This document shows, in pieces, positions 40-30,196 of a DNA stretch of 36,928 bases. The stretch covers positions 1 through 36,928 of the forward strand of contig CALGZA010000069.1 of NCBI GenBank assembly GCA_937934595.1, read 5' to 3'. The notes below the pieces were generated by a model that was given only the letters and a program-made list of their open reading frames with translations, was not told the DNA's origin and made no database searches. How positions within the stretch are numbered: the stretch's first letter is position 1; each line of letters starts with the position of its first letter. The position numbers and the translations under genes are program-made. The stretch comes from an uncultured Verrucomicrobiales bacterium. GTDB taxonomy: Bacteria > Verrucomicrobiota > Verrucomicrobiia > Verrucomicrobiales > Akkermansiaceae.

Positions 40-250
40 TAATAACATTTGAACCGTTAGAATAGATTGATAGCACAACAAGATAGCAAGAGTAGCAAGG
101 CAAGAGGAAAGCGCATAGTAGACTACGCAACTGACGAATAACTTAGCTAATCTTGATATATTGTTTTGCACTTCAAAAAATCAGCTCTCCTGCTGTTTCC
201 ATATGTATTGAAACTACTATCAGCCCTGGATAACTGTGAAAGCGGTATAA
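40..250 (+). repeat. 211-bp inverted-repeat element, copy 1
   Basis: First of four copies of a dispersed element (others at 11629, 21544 and 30715). It begins TAATAACATTTGAACC and ends in the imperfect complement, AAGCGGTATAA, and shares the internal block with GCACAACAAGATAGCAAG on the left and CTTGATATATTGTTTTGC on the right, which are themselves complementary. The copy is full length, with somewhat degraded ends. It lies 3' of the DUF58 gene that terminates at 385. It has no coding capacity. It is most likely a non-autonomous MITE-like element or a long-hairpin intergenic element. The rest of the interval from 1 to 384 holds no gene I can support. Confidence 0.85.
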
Positions 251-384
251 CCCTCATGAGTTAACTCACCTTAAAACCCACCCCTCTAACAAAAAATCAA
301 ACTCTAGCACTTACGCCAACGCGTATAGAAACAAAAAATCAAGTCTCCCTATCACCAGTTTTAAAACACACAGCCAGAGCAACT

Positions 385-1836
385 CTAAACACCCTCCCTA
401 TCAACAAGATAGCGGTTTGCAAGAGCCACGGGCAAACCCTGTGCCGTAGAATCCACAGTAGAAACCCCATGAACCTCTAACTGACTCATAACAGACCTCC
501 TTTCATCCAAATACATCTGTGTAGCCCCAAGAGTCAAAGCATCATCCAAACCATTAACCTCCCCCTCATAACGTTCTTTCACCCCCTTCTCCTGAAGATT
601 TGCCACCATCACCACATGCTTCTGACGTATCTTTCGAAGCGGCTCTATCAGCTCCTGACCATCTTCACCACGCACATTTGTTAAAACAATAACAAGCGAC
701 CGCTTACGCTGATGAGTCAACAACCTCTCAGCAGCTTCAGTAAAATCACTAGGACTTGGAGTCGTTTTATAATCATATAAATGATTCAACAAAGTAGTCA
801 TCGAATGCACACCCTTAACAGGAGGCAACCACCTCTCAGTCCCTCCAAAGCTCAGAACACCCACATGATCACCCTGCCTAAGCGCCACATAAGACAAAAG
901 CAACATTGCATTGAGACAGTGATCAAACTGCGGAACACCATCATCAATTGCACGCATCCTTCTACCGCAATCTATTACCAGAATAACATTCTGATCCTTC
1001 TGCTCCTGATAATCCCTACTAATAAGAGACCTATGCTTTGAAGAAGCCTTCCAATCAATCTGAGACAACATATCGCCCAACTGATAATCACGAAGCTGGT
1101 GAAACTCCTTACTCATCCCCACCCTATTCTTCATCACTATCCCCATCTGTTCAGGACTACTCTCCATCGTCAAAAGTGCATATCGCACAATCGGCTCATA
1201 ATTAGGGTAAACCTTCGTCTCAACCTCATCTCCAGTCCTAACCTGCCGTGACCACATACCAAGCCCTGTACGATACTCCAAATAAGACTTCTCCACCACA
1301 GTATCCCCTCTCTCATTTAACTCTAAGGGGTAAACTATCTTATTAAAACCCTTTGAAGGAAGAACCCCAGACCAAGGCAAACCATCACAAATAGCCTCCA
1401 TGGGTAACCCATCATGAAACATCACATGCATCTTAAATGCCGAATGATTAGAAATCTTCACCTCCACCTCATTCAAAACACCACTAGCAAAACGACCCGG
1501 TATTTCCCTATCACTACTCGGCGCAGGCAACAAAACCAAAACACAAAAATCAAGTAATACAAACCCAGCAAAAAGCATTAAACCATACTGCCATAAATAC
1601 CTCAAAGCAAGCTCCAGATCCACTCCAAATGTTAAATCCAAACTAAACGCTACCTTCCAACCCAACCACAGCAGAATCCACAAAAATATGCCCACTACTA
1701 TCTTCTTGGTTGGTCTAACCCTCAGCCTACTCCATAAAAACGTACACAGAATAATAGGCGCAACTACATACAACCCAAGATTTCTCAAAAAATCTATATA
1801 CACTTCAGCGAGCATAACTGGAAAATAATCGAACAA
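385..1836 (-). CDS. DUF58 domain protein (von Willebrand A-like), last gene of the MoxR operon
   Basis: The 483-residue protein has hydrophobic segments at about residues 22-38, 47-65 and 80-104, then a beta-rich middle region. The DUF58 signature lies around 249-266 (RDYQLGDMLSQIDWKASS), followed by a vWA-like strand with a metal-site-type motif, VIDCGRRM, at 287-294. DUF58 proteins are the usual partners of MoxR ATPases and are thought to be client or adaptor proteins held at the membrane. The start is TTG at 1836, preceded by GAGGG at 8 nt spacing inside the end of the MoxR gene. An ATG seven codons later (1815) has no visible ribosome site and is the alternative. It lies 3 bp after the MoxR stop and is clearly cotranscribed. 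Substrate and process are unknown. Confidence 0.9.
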   Translation of the reverse strand: MFDYFPVMLAEVYIDFLRNLGLYVVAPIILCTFLWSRLRVRPTKKIVVGIFLWILLWLGWKVAFSLDLTFGVDLELALRYLWQYGLMLFAGFVLLDFCVLVLLPAPSSDREIPGRFASGVLNEVEVKISNHSAFKMHVMFHDGLPMEAICDGLPWSGVLPSKGFNKIVYPLELNERGDTVVEKSYLEYRTGLGMWSRQVRTGDEVETKVYPNYEPIVRYALLTMESSPEQMGIVMKNRVGMSKEFHQLRDYQLGDMLSQIDWKASSKHRSLISRDYQEQKDQNVILVIDCGRRMRAIDDGVPQFDHCLNAMLLLSYVALRQGDHVGVLSFGGTERWLPPVKGVHSMTTLLNHLYDYKTTPSPSDFTEAAERLLTHQRKRSLVIVLTNVRGEDGQELIEPLRKIRQKHVVMVANLQEKGVKERYEGEVNGLDDALTLGATQMYLDERRSVMSQLEVHGVSTVDSTAQGLPVALANRYLVDREGV

Positions 1837-1839
1837 AAC

Positions 1840-2994
1840 TTACACCCTCGGAGCCTCAACACTATTAATAATAACCTCAAGAGCATCATCAACATTCTGT
1901 CCACTGATGGCCAACTCAGGTGATAGCTGAACTCGATGCCTCAACACCGGAACAGCAGCATACTTCACATCATCCGGCGTCACAAAATCCCTACCAGACA
2001 TGACTGCAATAGCCTTACCAACCTTAATCAAACTTATCGCACCTCGAGTACCTGCTCCTAAACTTATCCCCTGTGCATTACGCGTCGCTCTGGCTATATG
2101 CACAGCATACTGCACCACCTCTTCCACACAACGAACTTGCGTAACTCGCTCCTGCGCCTCAACAATAGTCATCGGATCACATACAGTCTCTATATCAGCT
2201 GGATTCAAGCCCTCGCCACGAGTCACCTGATCCACCACCGTAATCTCATCAACATCCTCAGGATAATCTATTATCACCTTCATCAAAAATCTATCTAACT
2301 GTGCCTCAGGCAATGGATACGTCCCCTCCTGCTCTATAGGGTTCTGTGTCGCTAAAGTCATAAATGGCGAGGCTAATGCATGACTACTCCCATCTATCGT
2401 TACCTGCTGCTCCTGCATCACCTCCAGAAGCGCAGCCTGTGTCTTAGCCGGTGCACGGTTAATCTCATCAGCCAAAAGTAAATTAGTAAACACCGGCCCC
2501 TTCTTTACCTGAAACGTCTGACTCTGCATATCATACAGAGTAAAACCCGTCACATCACTCGGCATAAGATCAGGAGTAAACTGAATCCGGCGGAATTCAC
2601 CCCCAAACGTATTCGCCAGCGCCACCACCAAATGCGTCTTACCCAGTCCAGGCTTACCCTCTAACAATAAATGACCACCAGCCAAAAAAGTAGCCAAAAC
2701 CTGATCCACCACAGTATCTTGTCCAAAAAACACCCTATTCAACTCACCTCGGATGCGCGTCATAAGCAACTTAACAGGATCATCCTCTACCTCCAAAACA
2801 CCACCCTCAGCAACTACATGAGAAACATCAGACGCAGAACCAACTACAGGATCCAATACTCCAGGTATAACAGAAGGACCAGATACAACCTGAGACACAG
2901 TATCACCACCAACAGAAGCTCCAGCCACAGTTGAACCAAGCGCCGGCATTGTCGCTTCATCATTCTCAACATTCATTTTTTCGTATTCATTCAT
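1840..2994 (-). CDS. MoxR-family AAA+ ATPase (MoxR1)
   Basis: This is a 384-residue AAA+ ATPase of the MoxR type. Walker A is GKPGLGKT at residues 113-120, Walker B is LLLADE at 172-177 followed by INRAPAKTQAALLEVMQE, and a sensor-type segment LATQNPIEQEGTYPLPEAQLDRF is present. The first 70 residues are a low-complexity V/S/G/P/E-rich extension not needed for the fold and absent from the paralogue at 8847. MoxR proteins use ATP to remodel or activate partner proteins, commonly vWA or DUF58 proteins. The start ATG overlaps the stop of the DUF4350 gene in an ATGA arrangement, with no separate ribosome site, so translation is probably coupled. The stop is 3 bp from the DUF58 start. Confidence 0.93.
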   Translation of the reverse strand: MNEYEKMNVENDEATMPALGSTVAGASVGGDTVSQVVSGPSVIPGVLDPVVGSASDVSHVVAEGGVLEVEDDPVKLLMTRIRGELNRVFFGQDTVVDQVLATFLAGGHLLLEGKPGLGKTHLVVALANTFGGEFRRIQFTPDLMPSDVTGFTLYDMQSQTFQVKKGPVFTNLLLADEINRAPAKTQAALLEVMQEQQVTIDGSSHALASPFMTLATQNPIEQEGTYPLPEAQLDRFLMKVIIDYPEDVDEITVVDQVTRGEGLNPADIETVCDPMTIVEAQERVTQVRCVEEVVQYAVHIARATRNAQGISLGAGTRGAISLIKVGKAIAVMSGRDFVTPDDVKYAAVPVLRHRVQLSPELAISGQNVDDALEVIINSVEAPRV

Positions 2995-4214
2995 AATGAT
3001 TTTAATATCGTTTGTAAATTCTTCGTGATCCTGACCATATCGCCAGCCTCATTAACATGATCCCTTGTTAGAGCTTCCAGCACCTCCTCAACATCCAATC
3101 CACTCTTCTCAGAAAATGTCTCTACCATAGCCCCCTCAACCTGACCATCTGCGCCAAACATACCACTACGCCGCAATACATTCTCCCTCATTGACCTAAG
3201 AAGCACACCAGAGCTCTTATACTTCCACAAGAACCTACCAGTGTTCCTCACTGACTGTAAATAATCTCGCGCATGACTTTCAGGCATCTCTAACAGTGGA
3301 CCAAAACGCGGAATATTCTTCCACAACCAAAACACCAACAACACAAAAACTCCCAACAAAGCAGGCCCAGCATTGTGAATCATCAGTGCCCAAAAACCAC
3401 GACGGCTACCATATGAAAAAACAATATCCCCATAAGCATCATAACTCATCCTCTCCAGCATCGCTGCATGATCGCTCATACCCAAATACGGATTTCTAAA
3501 TAAACGTCCATCCGTCACAAAGTAAATCCGACCCTCACCATAATCTAAACCTAAAAAACGATGATAATCTCCTCCATCAGACACAGAATCATAAAACGAG
3601 GAACCATCACGCTTTACTACCTTAGTCCCCCCTATCTGTAATTCATACTTTTCATCACCATCTCTAACATACACCGTCTCCACCAAAGGCAACTCATCCC
3701 CCAAAACCACAGGATGCTTGGGATCCCCATAGTAACTCTTACCCCCAGTTGTCTTCCCCGTCGGATCATCCTCCAGACTAACACCCAGTCTTCCTAAAAG
3801 ATAATTTACAGGATCCGTGCCTACACCATCACTATCATCCCGTCTCTTAAACCACTCATCAGTATCATGGTCACAAGATTCACCCACATCCACCCAATGC
3901 TTCCCCCCACGCTCCAATAAACAAACATAAACACCACCATTACTTACCCACTGCAGCATCTTATCCACCACTACATCAGAACCCACAGTAGAAGCAGGAG
4001 CGATAACCATCCCAGTGTCATAATCATACTTCAAAAAACCATTCTTAACCTTAACCTCACCATCATGAACCTCACGCAAGAACGCCTGCGCAGCCATATA
4101 AGGATTAAGCTCAGCTAAACCCTTATAACCATCAGTCTTATCCACCGTCACCTTAGTCCGCTTATCACAGCCAGTTAACACTAAAACCATCAAAAACAGC
4201 AATAAAGAGCGCAT
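2991..4214 (-). CDS. DUF4350-domain lipoprotein
   Basis: The 407-residue protein starts with a short signal sequence and lipobox (LTGC, Cys16), predicting a lipidated, exported N-terminal half. Residues from about 35 to 240 resemble DUF4350 (LNPYMAAQAFLRE, later a Rossmann-like segment with APAST and LLERG). One membrane helix at about 281-297 is followed by FGPLLEMPESHARDYLQSVRNTGRFLWK, a C-terminal segment typical of this family in MoxR/DUF58 clusters. The family has no established biochemical role. Translation probably starts at ATG 4214, preceded by GGAGGG 8 nt upstream. The start overlaps the DUF4129 stop (TAATG). The combination of a lipobox and an internal helix is odd. Either the signal is uncleaved or the protein is tethered at two points. 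Confidence 0.8.
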   Translation of the reverse strand: MRSLLLFLMVLVLTGCDKRTKVTVDKTDGYKGLAELNPYMAAQAFLREVHDGEVKVKNGFLKYDYDTGMVIAPASTVGSDVVVDKMLQWVSNGGVYVCLLERGGKHWVDVGESCDHDTDEWFKRRDDSDGVGTDPVNYLLGRLGVSLEDDPTGKTTGGKSYYGDPKHPVVLGDELPLVETVYVRDGDEKYELQIGGTKVVKRDGSSFYDSVSDGGDYHRFLGLDYGEGRIYFVTDGRLFRNPYLGMSDHAAMLERMSYDAYGDIVFSYGSRRGFWALMIHNAGPALLGVFVLLVFWLWKNIPRFGPLLEMPESHARDYLQSVRNTGRFLWKYKSSGVLLRSMRENVLRRSGMFGADGQVEGAMVETFSEKSGLDVEEVLEALTRDHVNEAGDMVRITKNLQTILKSL

Positions 4215-5728
4215 TACTTCACCCTCCCATCTACATCAAAAGGCCAGCTATCACATATCCCAGTCACCCTTGAATCATGAGGCAGCATCTTTCCATAAGC
4301 CAAACCCACCCACACCTCAGTCAAATCACGGAAAAACAAATCCCTACCATCCTCCATACTAATACCCATCACACGCCTTACACAATCAGCCTCAGTATCA
4401 CTCTCTAGTATAGGCACTCCACCTCGATTCACCATCCACGATATCGCACCCCTATACAGTAAACTCAGAGCTAATTGATGATCCCCACGTAACCACGCAT
4501 CTCTAGCTTCCTCAGATAATGCTTTAGGTAAACTTTCTGGCGTCACATCCATACCCATCACTGACTTAACAGCAGGCCGACTCTCCTCATCCTTCATACT
4601 ATTCACCATATGAGTTGCATGCCTATTTTTTACAATAACCCAGATAATAACCCCTACCACCAAGACAACCAACGCCACAAAAACAAATAAACTCCCCCCC
4701 TGAAACAAAGCCAACCCAGAACCAGATGATCCACCAGACACACTACCAAAACTCGAACTAGAACTAGAACTAGAGCTCGAACTAGAAGTCGAACTACTCT
4801 CATACTTCACCTCCGTCCGCTGATGCACGATGTAATCCTCACCTGAAGTAATTCTCTCCACACGCTCCTTAGCACTCTCAGCCCCCACTTCGCCCACAGT
4901 TAAAAAAGAAAAAACTAAACAAAAGAACAAAAAAAGAAAACCCTTAGAAGCAAAATTACGATTCAACCTCTCTGACAACCTCTTAAAAGACAGCTCAATA
5001 TCCCACCCCTCAGTCAAAGTCCTACTATTCACATACATCGCAAAACCCGCTCCCACAAACAAAGGCTCAATAACACTCAACGCAATCACATAAAAAAGCA
5101 AAAACAACCAAGTATCTGCATAATCGTCACCATACAATGACAAATCCTCAAAAAAACGTAACATTAAATCACTCTCACCATAAAACTGACCCACCATAGC
5201 CAGAAAAAAACAACAAGCTAACACCATCACTATGACCAACAAAAAACTAACCAACGCCGCCTGAAAAGCCCCATCTCCACCATTCCTCACCAGCAACTGA
5301 ACCCTAGCCTTATAAGCATGACCTTTCAAACCCTCAAGCTCAGACACAGGCAAAGACAAGCTCCTATTACTCGAAAAACGCCTCCAAAAACCACGCCAAA
5401 AATGACCAACAAGCATCCTAGGCCATAACTTCACCACTCCCCACACAGATACCCTCTCACCAAATAATTCACGGCTTATCACATACAAAGGCAACTTACT
5501 CGCTACACCAAGACTAAACCACACCCACAAAAAAGAACAAAAAACATGCCAACCACCAACCATACATTCCCCTAACAACACAATGCCTAATACCCACATA
5601 GGCCAAACACAAATCAACCATGACAAAAGTATGGTCACATAACTTCGCCTAACCATAGCACAACCTATATCTATGCTTTCCCATCGTGCCCTCGGCCTAA
5701 TCTTTGCTGTAACCGCCTCTAACTTCAT
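4214..5728 (-). CDS. Membrane protein with C-terminal DUF4129 domain and poly-Ser linker
   Basis: From ATG 5728 this is a 504-residue protein. The N-terminal half has several hydrophobic segments and a basic loop. A middle segment (FLFLFFCLVFSFLTVGEVGA) could be a helix or an internal signal. A low-complexity run of about 15 serines plus Gly/Ser follows, then another helix (LFVFVALVVLVVGVIIWVIV). The C-terminal cytoplasmic domain matches DUF4129 (DAWLRGDHQLALSLLYRGAI, late AYGKMLP). I prefer ATG 5728 over an in-frame upstream start at 5800 because a strong GGAGG-type site sits 9 nt before it and it overlaps the SpoIIM stop by ATGA. DUF4129 proteins co-occur with MoxR, DUF58 and DUF4350 genes. 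The molecular function is unknown. Confidence 0.82.
   Translation of the reverse strand: MKLEAVTAKIRPRARWESIDIGCAMVRRSYVTILLSWLICVWPMWVLGIVLLGECMVGGWHVFCSFLWVWFSLGVASKLPLYVISRELFGERVSVWGVVKLWPRMLVGHFWRGFWRRFSSNRSLSLPVSELEGLKGHAYKARVQLLVRNGGDGAFQAALVSFLLVIVMVLACCFFLAMVGQFYGESDLMLRFFEDLSLYGDDYADTWLFLLFYVIALSVIEPLFVGAGFAMYVNSRTLTEGWDIELSFKRLSERLNRNFASKGFLFLFFCLVFSFLTVGEVGAESAKERVERITSGEDYIVHQRTEVKYESSSTSSSSSSSSSSSSFGSVSGGSSGSGLALFQGGSLFVFVALVVLVVGVIIWVIVKNRHATHMVNSMKDEESRPAVKSVMGMDVTPESLPKALSEEARDAWLRGDHQLALSLLYRGAISWMVNRGGVPILESDTEADCVRRVMGISMEDGRDLFFRDLTEVWVGLAYGKMLPHDSRVTGICDSWPFDVDGRVK
4751..4798. repeat. Hexanucleotide-type tract encoding poly-Ser
   Basis: Several near-identical GAACTA units (TAGTTC on the coding strand) lie in tandem here and encode alternating AGT/TCT serine codons of the DUF4129 protein linker. 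The units are six bases long, so slippage would change linker length in frame without disrupting the gene. The tract separates two membrane-proximal regions and probably forms a flexible spacer. Confidence 0.75.
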
Positions 5729-6708
5729 GACCTTGTTCCCTCCTCCCTTATACCGCCACCTCTCCCCGCAAAAACAAAATAAACCAGCAATAAAAACCAC
5801 CCCACATAACCCACCATATACTTCAAATCAGCAGGAAAATCCTCAGCAGACCAAAACCCCTCAATAATCGCCGCTAAAAAAGTTAACGCACAAGCCCCCA
5901 TAATTAAAGGTAAACCCTGCTTCCCACTCTCCATTAGCGCCCTGCCCCTAGAAAGCTGACCAGGCTTTATCATAGCCATACCTATGCGCATCCCAGCCAT
6001 CCCCGCCACTATCATACCCAATAGCTCATAAGGCGCATGTCCAGAAACAAAGCTCAACAACCGCTCCGGAGAACCCTCATGCATAACATACGCCATAGCC
6101 GCACCCATCTGCAGACCATTAGACAAAACAACAAATAAACTCCCCACACCAGCCAATGCTCCTCCAGCCACTATCAAAAGATCTATACCTATATTATTAT
6201 TAATATAATGACCAAACATCGCAAAGTTAGAGCCAAACTCATCCCTCATACCACCCTTACTATCCTTCCCATACCAAGCATCCATATTCGCCCGCTCAGA
6301 CTCACCTAAAAGACTATGAACCCACTCAGGATCATGCTCATAACTCCACCATATCCCAAAAAATGGAACCAGAAAAAACAACCAGCATACGATCAGTAAC
6401 CGCCACTCACGTCGCATAGCCTGAGGAAATCCAGCTACAAAAAAATGCACCACCTTCTCCCACATCCCACTCTCAGACTTAGCCATCACATGATGACCAC
6501 GTGTCACCTGATAATTCAACAGATCACACACCCTTGACCCATAGACTCGATATCGCGCCAACGACAAATCCAAACAACGAGATCGCACCTGTGCAGGCAC
6601 CTGTGAAATATCTACATTACCCACATCACCCTTCTCCACCACCTCCATCATAGCATTATACCTTAACCACTCAGCATTATTCTTCTCTTTAAAATCCTTC
6701 TCGTTCAT
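5725..6708 (-). CDS. SpoIIM/DUF95 family membrane protein
   Basis: The 327-residue integral membrane protein has a soluble N-terminal region of about 100 residues, a helix near 103-122 (LLIVCWLFFLVPFFGIWW), a long loop, and at least four more helices. The segment FVSGHAPYELLGMIVAGMAGMRIGMAMI is the conserved signature of the SpoIIM/DUF95 family. In spore formers SpoIIM belongs to the engulfment complex. In non-sporulating bacteria, relatives sit beside RDD, MoxR and DUF58 genes with unknown function. Translation starts at ATG 6708 with GAGG about 10 nt upstream, 4 bp after the RDD stop. No sporulation genes are nearby, so a sporulation role is not suggested. Confidence 0.85.
   Translation of the reverse strand: MNEKDFKEKNNAEWLRYNAMMEVVEKGDVGNVDISQVPAQVRSRCLDLSLARYRVYGSRVCDLLNYQVTRGHHVMAKSESGMWEKVVHFFVAGFPQAMRREWRLLIVCWLFFLVPFFGIWWSYEHDPEWVHSLLGESERANMDAWYGKDSKGGMRDEFGSNFAMFGHYINNNIGIDLLIVAGGALAGVGSLFVVLSNGLQMGAAMAYVMHEGSPERLLSFVSGHAPYELLGMIVAGMAGMRIGMAMIKPGQLSRGRALMESGKQGLPLIMGACALTFLAAIIEGFWSAEDFPADLKYMVGYVGWFLLLVYFVFAGRGGGIREEGTRS
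5738..5747 (-). promoter_or_regulatory. Strong Shine-Dalgarno that fixes the DUF4129 start
   Basis: On the minus strand this reads GGGAGGAGGG, 9 nt before ATG 5728. It lies inside the 3' end of the SpoIIM-like gene and argues for the 504-residue form of the DUF4129 protein rather than the longer in-frame reading from 5800. Confidence 0.75.
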
Positions 6709-22022: not shown

Positions 22023-22394
22023 TTACCTATCATCAGGACTGTAAGGAGGAAAAACCAATATCCTCTCACCAGGCTTACTCCACTTCAACCTCTCTCGCGC
22101 TTTTATCTCTAAATAACGAGGATCCTGCTGTATCGCCCTATACTCCCTGTCAGCACTATCTTTAGCATCAGTAGCCACCTTAAGCTTGTCCATCCACTCA
22201 CCGTGATAAGTATCCTCCAAACTATCAGATTCCGCCAAACTAGGTAAAGCAGTCACAGGTAAAATCGCACAGACAACAATGATCAACAAACAAAGCGCAA
22301 TACGATTAATCATCGCCATCTGCGCGTTTCTTGCACGCAGACGTTGATGACGAACGTACTGTTCCATTTGTTGATCTGTCTCTTCTTGACCCAT
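22023..22394 (-). CDS. ftsB: FtsB/DivIC-like septum formation protein
   Basis: The 123-residue bitopic protein has a cytoplasmic basic N-terminus, one membrane helix (about 27-46, ALCLLIIVVCAILPV) and an extracytoplasmic helical region. The C-terminal motif DPRYLEIKARERLKWSKPGERILVF is characteristic of the FtsB/DivIC family, where the segment before GE contacts FtsQ and FtsL. It lies immediately after eno, the same neighbour as in many bacteria. The coiled coil is short and not strongly heptad-like, so the assignment is by motif and synteny. AGGTG stands 5 nt before the ATG. Confidence 0.72.
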   Translation of the reverse strand: MGQEETDQQMEQYVRHQRLRARNAQMAMINRIALCLLIIVVCAILPVTALPSLAESDSLEDTYHGEWMDKLKVATDAKDSADREYRAIQQDPRYLEIKARERLKWSKPGERILVFPPYSPDDR

Positions 22395-22440
22395 GTTGCA
22401 CCTGAAATAAATAACTTAATTATTAAGCTATCTAAAAATT

Positions 22441-23745
<1,305 letters not shown>

Positions 23746-25560
23746 TTACTTGTAAGCCTTTATTCCCTTTACCGTCATTGACGTCTTAACCACATCAACA
23801 GTGTCTCCCACCTTGGCCCCTAACAAAGACTTCGCCATCTCTGAAAGATAAGAAATCACATTATTATCAGGATCAGAGTCCCACGCACCTAAAATAGTGA
23901 TCTCCTTCTTCTCACCAGATGCATCCAGATTCACAACCGTACCTATCTTCACTGCATCAGGCTCCACATCCTTAAAGTCCGTCCCCTTCACATTACTCAG
24001 TGACTTCTCATAGTCAGCCTTACGCCGCATTAATACCTTCTGGTTGTCCTTAGCCATATGATACTCAGCATTCTCCCGTAAATCGCCATAAGACTTAGCT
24101 ATCTTAATGTCCTCCCTATTCTGCGGAATCTGATTATCTACCAAATCCTTATACTCAGCCTTCTTACGGTCAATACTATCCCATGAAGAAATCTGACCAC
24201 TGTTAGTCTGCTCTGAATCAGCACCATTTAATAACTCCTGAGTCTCAGGTGCCACCTTAATAACACGTGCCATCAAAGACTTCCTATCCAGCTCAGGAAA
24301 AATCTGTCCCTGATTCAACTTACGCCCAAAGTTCTTAGACTCATTCACATCAGCCTTCTCAAGTAAATCAGCAATAAGATCCTTTTCATCTATAAAATAA
24401 GTCTGCAAACGTGAACTCTTACGCGGCCCATCATCCATAGCATCCCTCTCAAGCAAACTCAAAATCGCATTCCCCACCTCATGATCAAAAATTGGCGCTG
24501 CCAGCTTTGCCCTCTCACGACATATCCATAAAAGAGAATCAGGCCCCAAAGTCCGCCCAGTAACATGCCCCCTCAAATAAACATATAGAAATTCACTCTT
24601 CTCATTCTCAATCAACAATTTAGCTATCTCAGCAAGACCACGCGGCCCCACTATATCAAATATAGCCAAAATCTCCTTCACCCAAGTATCTCCAAACGCA
24701 GCTGGATAAGCCTCAAATACCTTGCGCTGTCGCGCCGCAGGCAAAGAACCTAACTCACTCCCTATCTTGGAACTCTCAGTCTGCACAAGATCACTCAACC
24801 GTAAAGCCGAATCCTCCAAAACCAAATTATCAGAAACCTCCATCAAATCATCCCGGCCTACTAACAAATCTAAAGCCTGACCCAAATGTAACTTTATCCC
24901 CTTACGAACAGTCGAATCAATATCAGATGCTATCTTAGCCTGTGACTCAGCATCCTCACTAACATGACTAAAATCCTTTATAATAGCCTCCAGCGCACGC
25001 GCCTTAGTCTTCAAATCCTTTGCCTCAAAATAATCAGAAACAAGCGACTCCCCAGCTGTCAAACTCTCATCCCTCAGCACCAATGGATCAGTCCTCTTAG
25101 TAGGAACCACAGCAGCGCGGCTCTCTCTCAGTGCCTTCTTAGCTCCCTCCCACCACTTCTTGTAATTAGCCTCTGGTATCACAGACCCCACTAACTCACG
25201 CTCCAACTGATCCAACTTAAGCGAACCACCAAGACTCTTTAAAATCCTAACCACCAAACCTACTGGATCCTTATCCACCATCCCTCTAAGCTCACCCATA
25301 GACTCTAACTTCTGTGCACGGAAATGATCCCCATCAAGCTCAGTCGTCTTCTGTAAAGCAAGCTTCAAACCCATCTCCTGACCCTCATTATACTCAAAAT
25401 CAATAACCAACTTACCACCCTGTAAATCCCATGACTTAACCTTACCCGCTCCCCAGTTCTTATGTAAGCAAAACTTTCCAGGTGCCAATTGGGACAATCT
25501 CTCTCCGACTTCATTTGAAATCCGGCCTGCTTCAGTTAATTTAGCTACTTCAGGGTGCAT
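23746..25560 (-). CDS. greA: GreA/GreB-type elongation factor with long N-terminal extension
   Basis: The last ~155 of 604 residues form a GreA-like module. The coiled-coil segment KAEYKDLVDNQIPQNREDIKIAK is followed by SYGDLRENAEYHMAKDNQ, the conserved acidic tip region that rescues backtracked RNA polymerase, and then the FKBP-like C-terminal domain (ITILGAWDSDPDNNVISYLSEMAKSLLGAKVGDTVDV). GreA is normally about 158 residues. The 450-residue extension begins with a beta-rich segment (PGKFCLHKNWGAGKVKSWDLQGGKLVIDF) resembling CarD/Tudor-type RNA-polymerase-binding folds, then a mainly helical region. Long GreA forms of this style occur in Verrucomicrobiota. A GCAGG stands about 8 nt before the ATG. 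eno follows 21 bp downstream. Confidence 0.85.
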   Translation of the reverse strand: MHPEVAKLTEAGRISNEVGERLSQLAPGKFCLHKNWGAGKVKSWDLQGGKLVIDFEYNEGQEMGLKLALQKTTELDGDHFRAQKLESMGELRGMVDKDPVGLVVRILKSLGGSLKLDQLERELVGSVIPEANYKKWWEGAKKALRESRAAVVPTKRTDPLVLRDESLTAGESLVSDYFEAKDLKTKARALEAIIKDFSHVSEDAESQAKIASDIDSTVRKGIKLHLGQALDLLVGRDDLMEVSDNLVLEDSALRLSDLVQTESSKIGSELGSLPAARQRKVFEAYPAAFGDTWVKEILAIFDIVGPRGLAEIAKLLIENEKSEFLYVYLRGHVTGRTLGPDSLLWICRERAKLAAPIFDHEVGNAILSLLERDAMDDGPRKSSRLQTYFIDEKDLIADLLEKADVNESKNFGRKLNQGQIFPELDRKSLMARVIKVAPETQELLNGADSEQTNSGQISSWDSIDRKKAEYKDLVDNQIPQNREDIKIAKSYGDLRENAEYHMAKDNQKVLMRRKADYEKSLSNVKGTDFKDVEPDAVKIGTVVNLDASGEKKEITILGAWDSDPDNNVISYLSEMAKSLLGAKVGDTVDVVKTSMTVKGIKAYK

Positions 25561-26677: not shown

Positions 26678-27529
26678 TTAACCCCTATAAACATGAGCCC
26701 TCTGCCCCCTTACACCCAAACCAGTCACCTTGAAAACTTTCCCCGCATGCTCCTCTTCCTCAGTCTTATGAATACCAGTAGTCACATACAAAATATCCAA
26801 ACCCTCACCACCAAACGCACAAGCAGTCGTCTCCAAACACGGCAAATCAACACGCCTTAACTCATCTCCAGTCCTACCATCATAACATATCACACACCCG
26901 CCATGACAAAAAGCTACCCATAGATTATCATCCTCATCTATCGCCATACCATCAGGAGATGCTCCCACACTAGCCGTATCCACCAGCTCTCTTCGATTAG
27001 ATATCTCACCATCTTCGTAATCAAAAGCCAGAACCTTCAACTCCGGTGTATCTATATAAAACATCACACCACCATCAGCTGACCACGCCAACCCATTCGA
27101 ATTAGTCACACCAGAATAAACCTCAGTAATCTCACCACCACGTGACAACCTATACAAACTAGCATCCCCCTTCTCCTTAACTAAACTAATCGTACCAGCA
27201 AAAAAATGCCCGTCCGGTGAACACTTCCCATCATTAAACCTATTATTCTCCTTACCAGACTCAGGATCCCCAATTCTAACCAACTCGCCACTCTCAGCCA
27301 AATAAGAAAAACCACCATCACCAGCTATCACCATTCCACCAGACTCCCTCGGCACCACAGTACCCACACGCTCTCCCACTGACCACATCTCCTCACCACC
27401 CGGATTATCCGGATCCAGCCGGATCACCTTATGCCCCTCTATATCCACATAAAAAAGCGCTCCATTATACCATAACGGGCCTTCGCCCCACGTTGAAATG
27501 TATCCGTCGATAGGTTCTACTTGATGCAT
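26678..27529 (-). CDS. SMP-30/gluconolactonase-like beta-propeller
   Basis: From ATG 27529 (MHQVEPIDGY) the protein has 283 residues and an SMP-30/gluconolactonase/LRE pattern: GEGPLWYNGALFYVDIEGHKVIRLDP at the N-terminus, NRFNDGKCSPDGHFFAGTI (Asn and metal ligand region), TNSNGLAWSADGGVMFYIDTP, and ASPDGMAIDEDDNLWVAF. Members are calcium- or zinc-dependent lactonases for sugar-acid lactones. An open extension of 49 codons upstream overlaps the divergent promoter and looks non-coding, so the internal ATG is preferred. It is divergent from a PAS-AraC regulator and has no signal peptide. Probable role: cytoplasmic sugar-lactone hydrolysis. Confidence 0.85.
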   Translation of the reverse strand: MHQVEPIDGYISTWGEGPLWYNGALFYVDIEGHKVIRLDPDNPGGEEMWSVGERVGTVVPRESGGMVIAGDGGFSYLAESGELVRIGDPESGKENNRFNDGKCSPDGHFFAGTISLVKEKGDASLYRLSRGGEITEVYSGVTNSNGLAWSADGGVMFYIDTPELKVLAFDYEDGEISNRRELVDTASVGASPDGMAIDEDDNLWVAFCHGGCVICYDGRTGDELRRVDLPCLETTACAFGGEGLDILYVTTGIHKTEEEEHAGKVFKVTGLGVRGQRAHVYRG

Positions 27530-27575
27530 GACTACATTTAAGTCATAGATTATGCTACTGTCCAGCCAGCACCTT

Positions 27576-27589
27576 GATAAATATTTATC
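27576..27589. promoter_or_regulatory. 14-bp perfect palindrome in the SMP-30/AraC divergent promoter
   Basis: GATAAATATTTATC is fully self-complementary and lies in the 72-bp gap between the two divergent starts (27529 and 27602), 12 bp before the AraC-type gene. It could be an operator or overlap a -10 region. The A/T-rich content makes chance symmetry plausible. Confidence 0.4.
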
Positions 27590-27601
27590 CCACACATATT
27601 C

Positions 27602-28363
27602 ATGCCAGATAGCCCAAGAGAACATTTCCTCAGCAACCTCGCCACCCCACTCATCAGCGAGAAACTTTTTGAACAAGTACCAGACATCGTTTTCTGCATC
27701 AAAAACCTCAACGGAACCTACATCTCAGCAAATCAAGCATTCGCACACAGACTAGCCCTCACATCATACAGAGACATCATCGGCAAAACAGCCAAACAAC
27801 TATTCCCAGAATACCTCGCTAAAATCTACGAACAACAAGACCAAACCGTATTCTCTACAGGAACTGAAATCAACGATCAACTCGAACTAGTAAACACCAG
27901 AAACCAATCCATGGGCTGGTACCTTGCCACTAAAATCCCACTCAAAGACAACAAAGGAAACATCATAGGACTCGCATCCATCTCACGCGACCTCCAAAAA
28001 CCAGCATATGATGACCTCAAATTCACAGATCTACTTCAAACCGTTAACTATATCCAAAAACAATTCTCAGAACATATCAAAATCTCAGAACTAGCATCCA
28101 ATATAAACCTCTCAGTCGTCCAACTCGACCGCAGAATGAAAAAAATATTCAAACTATCAACCGCACAATTCATCAGAAAAACCAGAATCGGTGCCGCCTC
28201 CAAAATGCTCCAAACCTCAGACAAATCAATCGCACAAATTGCTCAAGAATGCGGATACGCTGACCAATCAGCATTCACACGCCAGTTCAAACTCACAGTA
28301 GGAATGACCCCAAACAAATACAGAATCCATCAATCTAACTTCTCTCCACACTTCCGGCAATAA
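27602..28363 (+). CDS. AraC-family regulator with N-terminal PAS domain
   Basis: The 253-residue protein has a PAS domain at about 20-135 (LFEQVPDIVFCIKNLNGTYISANQAF, later WYLATKIPLKDNKGNIIGLASISRDL) and an AraC-type double helix-turn-helix at about 150-245 (IKISELASNINLSVVQLDRRMKKIF, then SIAQIAQECGYADQSAFTRQFK and MTPNKYR). A PAS sensor in place of the usual cupin sugar-binding domain suggests a small-molecule or redox signal. The divergent position implies control of the SMP-30-like gene and perhaps thiG. The 3' end overlaps the K+ channel gene tail-to-tail by 34 bp. Confidence 0.9.
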   Translation: MPDSPREHFLSNLATPLISEKLFEQVPDIVFCIKNLNGTYISANQAFAHRLALTSYRDIIGKTAKQLFPEYLAKIYEQQDQTVFSTGTEINDQLELVNTRNQSMGWYLATKIPLKDNKGNIIGLASISRDLQKPAYDDLKFTDLLQTVNYIQKQFSEHIKISELASNINLSVVQLDRRMKKIFKLSTAQFIRKTRIGAASKMLQTSDKSIAQIAQECGYADQSAFTRQFKLTVGMTPNKYRIHQSNFSPHFRQ

Positions 28364-29178
28364 TTCGCATCAGCCAAATGACCATGCACACCACAAGCCC
28401 CACATGCCCGAGACGTCTCATCAGGCTGATTATCCGCCTGCATCATAGCACTACTCACTATACCAGTAGGCACCGCTATTATTGCATATCCAGCTAAAAT
28501 CATACACGTAGTCAAAAACCTTCCAAGATCAGTAGCCACAGTTATATCACCGTAGCCCACCGTCGTAATAGAAACAATCGCATAATAAATACTAGCAGGT
28601 ATACTAGTAAACTGAGTATCAGCCTCGCGCCCCTCCACAAAATACATCAAAGTCCCAGCTATCACCGAAAACACCAAAACAGCAAAAAAGAAAACCGTAA
28701 TCTTAGCCTTAGATTTCCGCAAACCAGACGCTATCACCTGCGCACCCTTAACATGCTGAACCATCTTCAACACCCTAAATATCCTCAATAAACGCAAAAT
28801 CCGAATCACCGCAAATCCATGCGTCCCCGCAAAAACCATCGCAAGATACGTCGGCAAACAAGACAACAGATCAATCACACCAAAAAAACTAGTAGCATAC
28901 TTAATCGGCCGCCTAGATACCCACAACCTAGTCACATACTCAATCGTAAAGAAAATCGTAAAAAACCACTCAAACACATTGAGCAACGAACCATACCTCT
29001 GCTGAAAAGGCACAACCGTCTCCAGCATCACAGCCAACACACTAAAAAAAATCGCCCACAGCAAAACCACATCAAAGACCTTCCCAGACGGTGTCTCCGC
29101 CTCGAAAATAATCTCCCATACCCTCTGCTTCAAGCCATCCCTCTCACCCTCAACGCGCTCTCTTTTTTCTCTTCTCAT
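28330..29178 (-). CDS. Voltage-gated-type potassium channel with C-terminal zinc ribbon
   Basis: The 282-residue six-helix channel (counting from ATG 29178) has an S4-type helix with regularly spaced arginines (RILRLLRIFRVLK, 126-138), a pore helix and the K+ selectivity filter TTVGYGD (205-211), then S6 (CMILAGYAIIAVPTGIV). This is the Kv/KvAP architecture. The last 25 residues form a Cys4 zinc-ribbon (CGACG and CRKCG), an unusual cytoplasmic tail. TTG 29181 lies one codon upstream, but ATG is preferred. It follows the methyltransferase gene by 12 bp on the same strand. Physiological ion preference is inferred from the filter. Confidence 0.92.
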   Translation of the reverse strand: MRREKRERVEGERDGLKQRVWEIIFEAETPSGKVFDVVLLWAIFFSVLAVMLETVVPFQQRYGSLLNVFEWFFTIFFTIEYVTRLWVSRRPIKYATSFFGVIDLLSCLPTYLAMVFAGTHGFAVIRILRLLRIFRVLKMVQHVKGAQVIASGLRKSKAKITVFFFAVLVFSVIAGTLMYFVEGREADTQFTSIPASIYYAIVSITTVGYGDITVATDLGRFLTTCMILAGYAIIAVPTGIVSSAMMQADNQPDETSRACGACGVHGHLADANYCRKCGEKLD

Positions 29179-29190
29179 CAAAACTATAAA

Positions 29191-29907
29191 TCACTTTCGC
29201 CTCCAATGACTCACCTTAGAAACACCCAACTGAAATTTCCTAACATGATCCCGGATTGTAAACACCTCATCAGCATGCCTAATGCACTCAAAATCAGGCG
29301 ACAACACACCCTGAAGCCACTCCCAGCTATCCCCATCCGGGATATTCTCCTTTAAAGTAAATTCCTCAGACCACGAAAAAGGAGTAGCCAGAACCAACTC
29401 GCCACCCTGCTTTACCAAATCAGGTAAACGCCCCAAAAACTTCATCGGATCCGGTAACCTACAAACCAAATTAGCCGCATGCACACGGTCAAAACCCCTA
29501 AACCCATCCGGCAAATTCATCGCATCACCCTCAGCAAAACTCACACTCTCCCTCACAGAACCCTCTGGAACCCTCGCAGTAGCCGGAAGAAAATGAACAC
29601 CCTCCTCCTGATACTCATACCCCATCTCACCATTCTCCTGCAAATAATTAGCAGTATCGATAAACAACTTAGAAAAATCTATCCCTATCACCTTACCAGA
29701 AGTCTTACTCAAATGAAACGCTGAAGCACCAACAGCACAGCCAACATCTAAACTCAAATCAACCCGCTTCTGTGTAAAATAACTCACAGTCTGCAAAGGA
29801 AAATCCAAAGCCGCTAACTTACCAAAACTCCACGGCATGCGCTGATCATGCTCACCATAATGCATCAGTAAATAATCACTCAGCACCTTCTTCGATTCAT
29901 AATTCAT
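29191..29907 (-). CDS. Putative 4-mercaptohistidine N1-methyltransferase (OvoA C-terminal type)
   Basis: From ATG 29907, preceded by AGAGG at 8 nt, this is a 238-residue class I SAM methyltransferase. It starts NYESKKVLSDYLLMHYG, then has MPWSFGKLAALDFPLQTV, the SAM motif DVGCAVGASAFHLS, VIGIDFSK, FAEGDAMNLPD, HAANLVCRLPDPMKFLGRLPDLVKQGGELVL and a tail IRDHVRKFQLGVSKVSHWRR. These segments match the stand-alone form of the OvoA C-terminal methylase that makes ovothiol from 4-thiohistidine. No sulfoxide synthase is in the window. An in-frame hydrophobic extension from 30000 is probably not translated. Confidence 0.82.
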   Translation of the reverse strand: MNYESKKVLSDYLLMHYGEHDQRMPWSFGKLAALDFPLQTVSYFTQKRVDLSLDVGCAVGASAFHLSKTSGKVIGIDFSKLFIDTANYLQENGEMGYEYQEEGVHFLPATARVPEGSVRESVSFAEGDAMNLPDGFRGFDRVHAANLVCRLPDPMKFLGRLPDLVKQGGELVLATPFSWSEEFTLKENIPDGDSWEWLQGVLSPDFECIRHADEVFTIRDHVRKFQLGVSKVSHWRRK

Positions 29908-30196
29908 AAACCAATCCTCTCTAACTGAACCCCAAAACTCAAGCTCAATTAATCCCCCAACATAAACCAACACACAAACTACCACAATACGCTCAAACAA
30001 AACACCAACCGCCCACTTTCGCTCATCTAGAAATCAAATTCTCCCCAAAAAAATGATACCAATCTTGCTAAAAAAACTAACATCAATTCATAAAGAAAAA
30101 TATACTACAAACAACCTGAAACACAATCAAAAGCAACAATCAACACTTGCTAAAAAACCTCAACCCTATACACCACAAGCCATCAACATCAAAACC

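Follow-up and report, generated by a model that had tools for sequence, protein, structure and literature searches.

What does a GreA module do at the end of a protein in which it is preceded by some 450 further residues? The question is raised by a gene in a stretch of 36,928 nucleotides from an uncultured Verrucomicrobiales bacterium of the Akkermansiaceae (contig CALGZA010000069.1); this whole stretch is referred to below as the window.

Genomic Context of the Long greA Gene

The gene lies on the minus strand (25560–23746; an earlier note on this sequence had named no strand), and the minus-strand gene order across positions 22023–25560 of the window is long greA, enolase, DivIC-like gene:

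23746–25560, minus strand: long-form GreA, 604 aa (open reading frame with ATG start, Pfam matches, relatives in other genomes)
22441–23724, minus strand: enolase, directly downstream of long greA (Pfam)
22023–22394, minus strand: DivIC-like gene, after enolase (below the Pfam cut-off)

Enolase and long greA are probably co-transcribed; eno adjoins long greA in 25 of the 29 relatives' loci compared (L003–L031), and one of the four loci without this adjacency (L023) is truncated by the end of its contig. The upstream neighbours (positions 26678–30000) are ordinary and include genes for an SMP-30/gluconolactonase, an ion channel, and a methyltransferase.

Only two Pfam families were found above cut-off in the 604-residue protein, GreA_GreB_N (PF03449; residues 461–524, 54.4 bits versus a cut-off of 24.5) and GreA_GreB (PF01272; residues 535–594, 57.1 bits versus a cut-off of 26.9), in agreement with the earlier description of a 604-residue protein carrying a GreA module. 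The figure of about 450 residues preceding this module was also borne out, as the match to E. coli GreA (1grj) covers residues 454–603. Relatives of the long GreA are encoded in 56 of the 58 genomes searched, the bacterium's own included; the relatives are near full length in 55 genomes and split over two contig pieces in one (G028), and none contains an internal stop. The 604-residue frame is a real gene.

Domain Layout

An AlphaFold2 model of the protein, built on an alignment of 61 sequences, presented a mean pLDDT of 91.5 and a pTM of 0.57, the low pTM meaning that the placing of the parts relative to each other is unsure. The predicted order is two short helices, a five-stranded barrel, an alpha-solenoid, a linker, and GreA, with the following features:

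25336–25488, minus strand: Tudor-like barrel, residues 25–75 (AlphaFold2, sequence profile, fold searches), with strands at residues 30–33, 37–45, 50–55, 61–64, and 72–75 in the AlphaFold2 model
24214–25323, minus strand: alpha-solenoid of HEAT-like arrangement, residues 80–449 (AlphaFold2; generic solenoid matches, best Z 8.3)
24202–24219, minus strand: low-confidence linker, residues 448–453, pLDDT < 50 (AlphaFold2)
23992–24195, minus strand: GreA N-terminal coiled coil, residues 456–523 (Pfam, AlphaFold2, fold search)
24073–24084, minus strand: acidic tip of the coiled coil, D493-L-R-E496 (both acidic residues in 37/37 rows of alignment A1)
23755–23961, minus strand: GreA C-terminal domain, residues 534–602 (Pfam, AlphaFold2, fold search)

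The structure prediction of the N-terminal region, which had been proposed as a check, thus yielded a Tudor barrel resembling polymerase-interaction Tudor domains. The earlier note had likened the first 60 residues to a CarD/Tudor-like fold; the Tudor-like barrel stands, but its true span is residues 25–75, and the bulk of the extension is the alpha-solenoid (residues 80–449), which that note did not mention. Assignment of the solenoid to a family was tried and rejected; it matched COPI, AP-2, SF3b, importin, and PUF-like structures with a best Z of 8.3, a range common for helical repeats, and no TPR or HEAT family was matched by Pfam on the long-GreA members.

The GreA Module and Its Acidic Tip

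Gre factors insert their coiled coil into the secondary channel of RNA polymerase, with the C-terminal domain placed at the mouth of the channel. Residues 454–603 superpose on E. coli GreA (1grj; VIA Z 15.8, rmsd 2.9 over 148 residues), and both the coiled coil and the C-terminal domain fold of Gre factors are present. At the tip of the coiled coil, D493 and E496, which we take to be equivalent to E. coli D41 and E44, are kept throughout alignment A1 (37 sequences recruited without the tip pattern); the tip residues are also found in 61/61 sequences of alignment A2, a count that we set aside because A2 was largely recruited with the tip pattern. The likeness to E. coli GreA and GreB (PF03449 plus PF01272) is therefore one of fold and acidic tip, and the difference lies in the roughly 450 extra N-terminal residues; against the model for classical short greA (TIGR01462), the protein scored 114.6 bits, below the cut-off of 139. 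The complete module and intact tip suggest that the long GreA acts as a cleavage factor.

Identity of the N-Terminal Barrel

A profile of the barrel (A3; 53 sequences, residues 22–84) gave nine matches at E ≤ 10 among all PDB chain sequences; the best was a UvrD Tudor (E = 0.0013), and further UvrD/PcrA Tudors were found at ranks 2 (E = 0.13) and 9 (E = 0.97). When the 53 barrels were compared singly with Pfam, 35 matched DUF3553 (best E = 0.00019), 13 matched PcrA_UvrD_tudor (best E = 0.0055), and nine matched CarD_TRCF_RID (best E = 0.00028), all of them weakly; in a control, DUF3553 was found in nine of 10 barrel members and any family in none of 10 shuffled sequences. The barrel encoded in the window matched DUF3553 alone (E = 0.021) and presented no match to PcrA_UvrD_tudor (PF21196) or CarD_TRCF_RID (PF02559) at E ≤ 1; for the full protein, PcrA_UvrD_tudor gave a single weak match (E = 0.1), which lies outside the barrel, within the C-terminal domain of GreA.

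Comparisons of structure used a model of the isolated barrel (pLDDT only 71.6) as well as the full model. In Foldseek, UvrD/PcrA Tudors filled ranks 1–6 of 350,542 chains for the isolated barrel (E = 0.017–0.042, probability 1.00), with no match under E = 0.001. The first four ranks in VIA were likewise UvrD/PcrA Tudors, namely 7egs (Z 7.4; a UvrD Tudor in a crystal structure with the lobe of E. coli polymerase), 7egt (Z 7.3), 9dqs (Z 7.0), and 5dma (Z 7.0), followed by a mouse histone-reader Tudor (Z 6.5), CarD (4kbm, Z 6.2), and Mfd (2eyq, Z 5.7), where a Z below 8 can arise from a commonly seen arrangement and rows that differ by no more than 1 count as tied. The full model aligned to all 47 residues of 7egt with an rmsd of 1.2 (Z 6.8). 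When the whole genome of the bacterium was scanned with A3, the best match after the barrel itself was the polymerase-interaction domain of Mfd (E = 0.11); hhalign of the barrel against this domain gave a probability of 91, as compared to 1.4 and 0.2 for two control segments, the C-terminal domain of GreA and a helicase stretch of Mfd, respectively.

The protein encoded in the window thus contains a five-stranded Tudor barrel of the PcrA/UvrD type, with modest scores. Because the PDB, Pfam, fold, and own-genome comparisons converge while simple controls are empty, the barrel is predicted to be a bacterial Tudor of the polymerase-interaction type, each single score being weak. Its best-ranked fold and sequence matches are the C-terminal Tudors of PcrA/UvrD (5dma, 7egt, 7egs, and 9dqs), but these sit at the C-terminus of a helicase and the one described here at the N-terminus of a Gre factor. 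The CarD/Mfd polymerase-interaction domain (PF02559) has the Tudor fold in common with the barrel, and the bacterium's own Mfd domain was recovered by the barrel profile; however, the likeness is weaker than that to PcrA/UvrD, and PF02559 did not match the barrel encoded in the window. CarD was considered and rejected as the closest relative, since CarD and Mfd presented the same fold but ranked after PcrA/UvrD, with differences partly within ties.

Binding Face and RpoB Motif

The PcrA residues mutated for polymerase binding, according to PMC5397179, are H681, W684, K712, and L714. H33 and W36 of the barrel, spaced alike, are the counterparts of H681 and W684; among the 37 A1 sequences, 31 have the histidine and 34 the tryptophan. 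The positions of K712 and L714, which were placed by alignment and are less sure, are occupied by Gln61 (Gln in 20/37 and His in 13/37 of A1) and Met63 (Met in 34/37). By this comparison, the histidine and tryptophan of the PcrA/UvrD binding face are kept in the barrel, and the key lysine, as placed by alignment, is not.

According to PMC8318588, the target of PcrA's Tudor in RpoB is a TGE hairpin motif. The strict published pattern of this helicase interaction motif ([VIL]Dxx-TGE-[VIL][VILT]) was found in none of 18 full-length RpoB sequences from the bacterium's own genome and its relatives, nor in one partial RpoB (L180); relaxed look-alikes, VAASTGEMI near residue 673 of the bacterium's own RpoB and V-N-x-x-TGE near residue 945 in the RpoB of some relatives, were not counted. 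A DNA pattern for the motif was found at seven places in the whole genome, versus one for a backward control, and at none on the contig with rpoB (C15). If the barrel binds polymerase, it would therefore use another site or a diverged motif.

Distribution of the Long Form and Other GreA Genes

In the genome, which is 95.9% complete, PF01272 was found in no protein other than the long GreA; this answers a further check proposed earlier, a search for a separate short greA, and the refuting case named with it, a separate GreA doing all the work, does not apply to this genome. Within the family, PF01272 was found in 77 of 79 genomes, with exactly one match in 68; in 65 of these 68, the match lies in a frame of at least 570 aa, and the others lie in frames of 453, 286, and 198 aa, the 286-aa frame being a piece cut by a contig end. 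Across the phylum, 190 of 194 genomes contain PF01272 and, among the matches listed, 136 genomes have exactly one and 54 have two or more; at least 12 one-contig genomes have a single match, in a frame of 620–710 aa. All 20 short PF01272 proteins checked among 30 phylum loci (L032–L040, L043, L045, L047–L050, L052, L055–L057, and L061) are without the GDxxEN tip and hence do not look like cleavage-competent GreA; they resemble GreA C-terminal-domain or Rnk-like proteins.

A genome scan that used the tip pattern yielded at least 80 loci and, among the matches listed, long forms in which barrel, solenoid, and GreA are aligned were found in Verrucomicrobiota, Kiritimatiellota, Lentisphaerota, Chlamydiota, Spirochaetota, Fibrobacterota, and Acidobacteriota. 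The long GreA is the sole PF01272 match in 13 of 19 genomes from this multi-phylum scan. In an unrooted tree, from which two contig-cut long proteins (L116 and L138) were left out, a single branch separated the 61 long from the 21 short proteins in 93% of 200 bootstrap trees. This is compatible with one origin of the long form but, as the tree is unrooted and most members were recruited by the tip-pattern scan (60 of the long proteins and 15 of the short), does no more than allow it. At one locus (L079, positions 68–5410, minus strand, genome G150), an open frame of 1781 aa has a stretch of about 1150 residues, without a Pfam match, ahead of its long GreA part. At another locus (L141, positions 5074–5973), a spirochaete long GreA is extended at its N-terminus by roughly 300 residues with TPR-like repeats.

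The long-form fusion is already annotated, occurs in several phyla, and is not peculiar to this genome. Two NCBIfam models describe members of the long-GreA family, as proteins of this family pass the cut-offs of both. A Chlamydiales protein (L147) passes that of NF004969/PRK06330, a "transcript cleavage factor/unknown domain fusion protein" of 718 positions; residues 22–602 of the protein encoded in the window are co-linear with positions 134–714 of this model (arm plus GreA; E = 4.3e-46), but the N-terminal 110 or so residues of the model have no counterpart, and the score of 157.9 bits is below the cut-off of 697. The spirochaete protein L141 passes the cut-off of NF011309/PRK14720, a long "transcription elongation factor GreA" of 906 positions; the barrel and GreA parts match this model (E = 1.2e-59), and the barrel alone matches positions 307–361 (E = 2.8e-8), but the score of 202.3 bits is below the cut-off of 714, and the additional N-terminal residues of the spirochaete protein are a further difference. 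No study of the arm of the long GreA was found in the open-licence literature, which is weak evidence of absence; "greA" is absent from the main text of PMC12283558 and from PMC2474590, and chlamydial GreA appears in PMC3899948 only in an appendix listing. The new part is the predicted nature of the N-terminus of the long GreA.

Helicase Tudors in the Phylum

UvrD-type helicases are present in the bacterium's own genome, and two of them end, as judged by eye, without a Tudor-like tail. PcrA_UvrD_tudor was not matched in this genome at E ≤ 10, as compared to positive results in 10 of 14 control genomes; over the Pfam cut-off, it was found in none of 115 phylum genomes (four weak matches) versus eight of the 14 controls. 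Among genomes with a long GreA, matches over the cut-off were found in none of 13 PVC members and in four of six others. The helicase Tudor and the GreA Tudor are thus mutually exclusive in the PVC sample but not generally, a correlation within one lineage that may be chance. A speculative reading, which we regard as unlikely, is that PVC bacteria carry the docking Tudor on GreA instead of on PcrA/UvrD, with the link between helicase and polymerase absent or replaced by a tethered GreA that uses a docking site not described so far. Because the helicases of PVC bacteria are without a recognisable PcrA-type Tudor and their Gre factor has one, the rescue of backtracked polymerase would under this reading be held on the enzyme itself.

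Proposed Function and Alternatives

The domain layout, the Tudor fold, the intact tip, the finding of no second GreA-domain gene, and the wide conservation were all obtained by computation. The reading that we prefer, and to which we give an even chance, is that the long GreA is a Gre transcript-cleavage factor with the order Tudor, alpha-solenoid, GreA, whose Tudor-solenoid arm tethers it to polymerase. The GreA module would enter the secondary channel of RNA polymerase, and its acidic tip would stimulate cleavage of backtracked RNA like that of ordinary GreA. The N-terminal arm would remain outside the channel, able to reach the polymerase surface because its point of attachment is the base of the coiled coil; the Tudor would dock on that surface, most likely on the beta subunit, as the Tudors of PcrA/UvrD, CarD, and Mfd do, and the solenoid would serve as a spacer between Tudor and GreA. 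The factor may in this way be held on, or delivered to, the elongating polymerase.

Large solenoids are typical protein-binding platforms, and that of the long GreA would suit such a role in an adaptor, the arm binding a partner other than polymerase (a repair protein, for example UvrB, or DNA or the ribosome) and bringing it to stalled polymerase via GreA. UvrB is also bound by PcrA's Tudor (PMC8318588), the solved relative 7egt is a UvrD Tudor with UvrB, and non-specific DNA binding by UvrD's Tudor is reported in PMC7585439. The motif bound by PcrA's Tudor, not found in any of the 18 full-length RpoB sequences, also points in this direction, but its absence does not exclude polymerase, because the CarD and Mfd relatives bind polymerase without a TGE motif; we consider an adaptor somewhat unlikely. 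The arm could also cover or position the coiled coil and limit GreA until a signal arrives, or the whole protein could act as an inhibitor like Gfh1. The pTM of 0.57 and the low-confidence linker (residues 448–453) suggest that the position of the arm relative to GreA is variable, and Gfh1 inhibits although its acidic tip residues are kept (PMC4598747); the fold does not decide between GreA and Gfh1, since their Z scores (15.8 for 1grj versus 14.5 for Gfh1, 3aoi) are not clearly separated. However, the long GreA is the sole PF01272 protein found in the genome, and exactly one is found in 68 of 79 family genomes, so that, if this protein were purely inhibitory, the cell would have no Gre factor; a regulatory role of this kind appears quite improbable. 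That the arm is an ancient fusion kept for stability or for a task unrelated to transcription would fit the finding of no reported arm function in the open-licence literature, but barrel and solenoid have stayed joined to GreA in several phyla and the relatives of the barrel are polymerase-interaction domains, which makes this the case only with very low probability.

Under the preferred reading of a Gre factor tethered by its arm, the consequences reach beyond this bacterium. For whole bacterial groups, Chlamydiota among them, a search for PF01272 often finds the long form alone, whereas current models of GreA are built on the short protein. Should the arm tether the factor to polymerase, then in these groups Gre activity would not depend on a freely diffusing factor that competes for the secondary channel. 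Reading the domains in this way turns an "unknown domain fusion" into a testable Tudor hypothesis, to which the helicases without a Tudor may add a second link.
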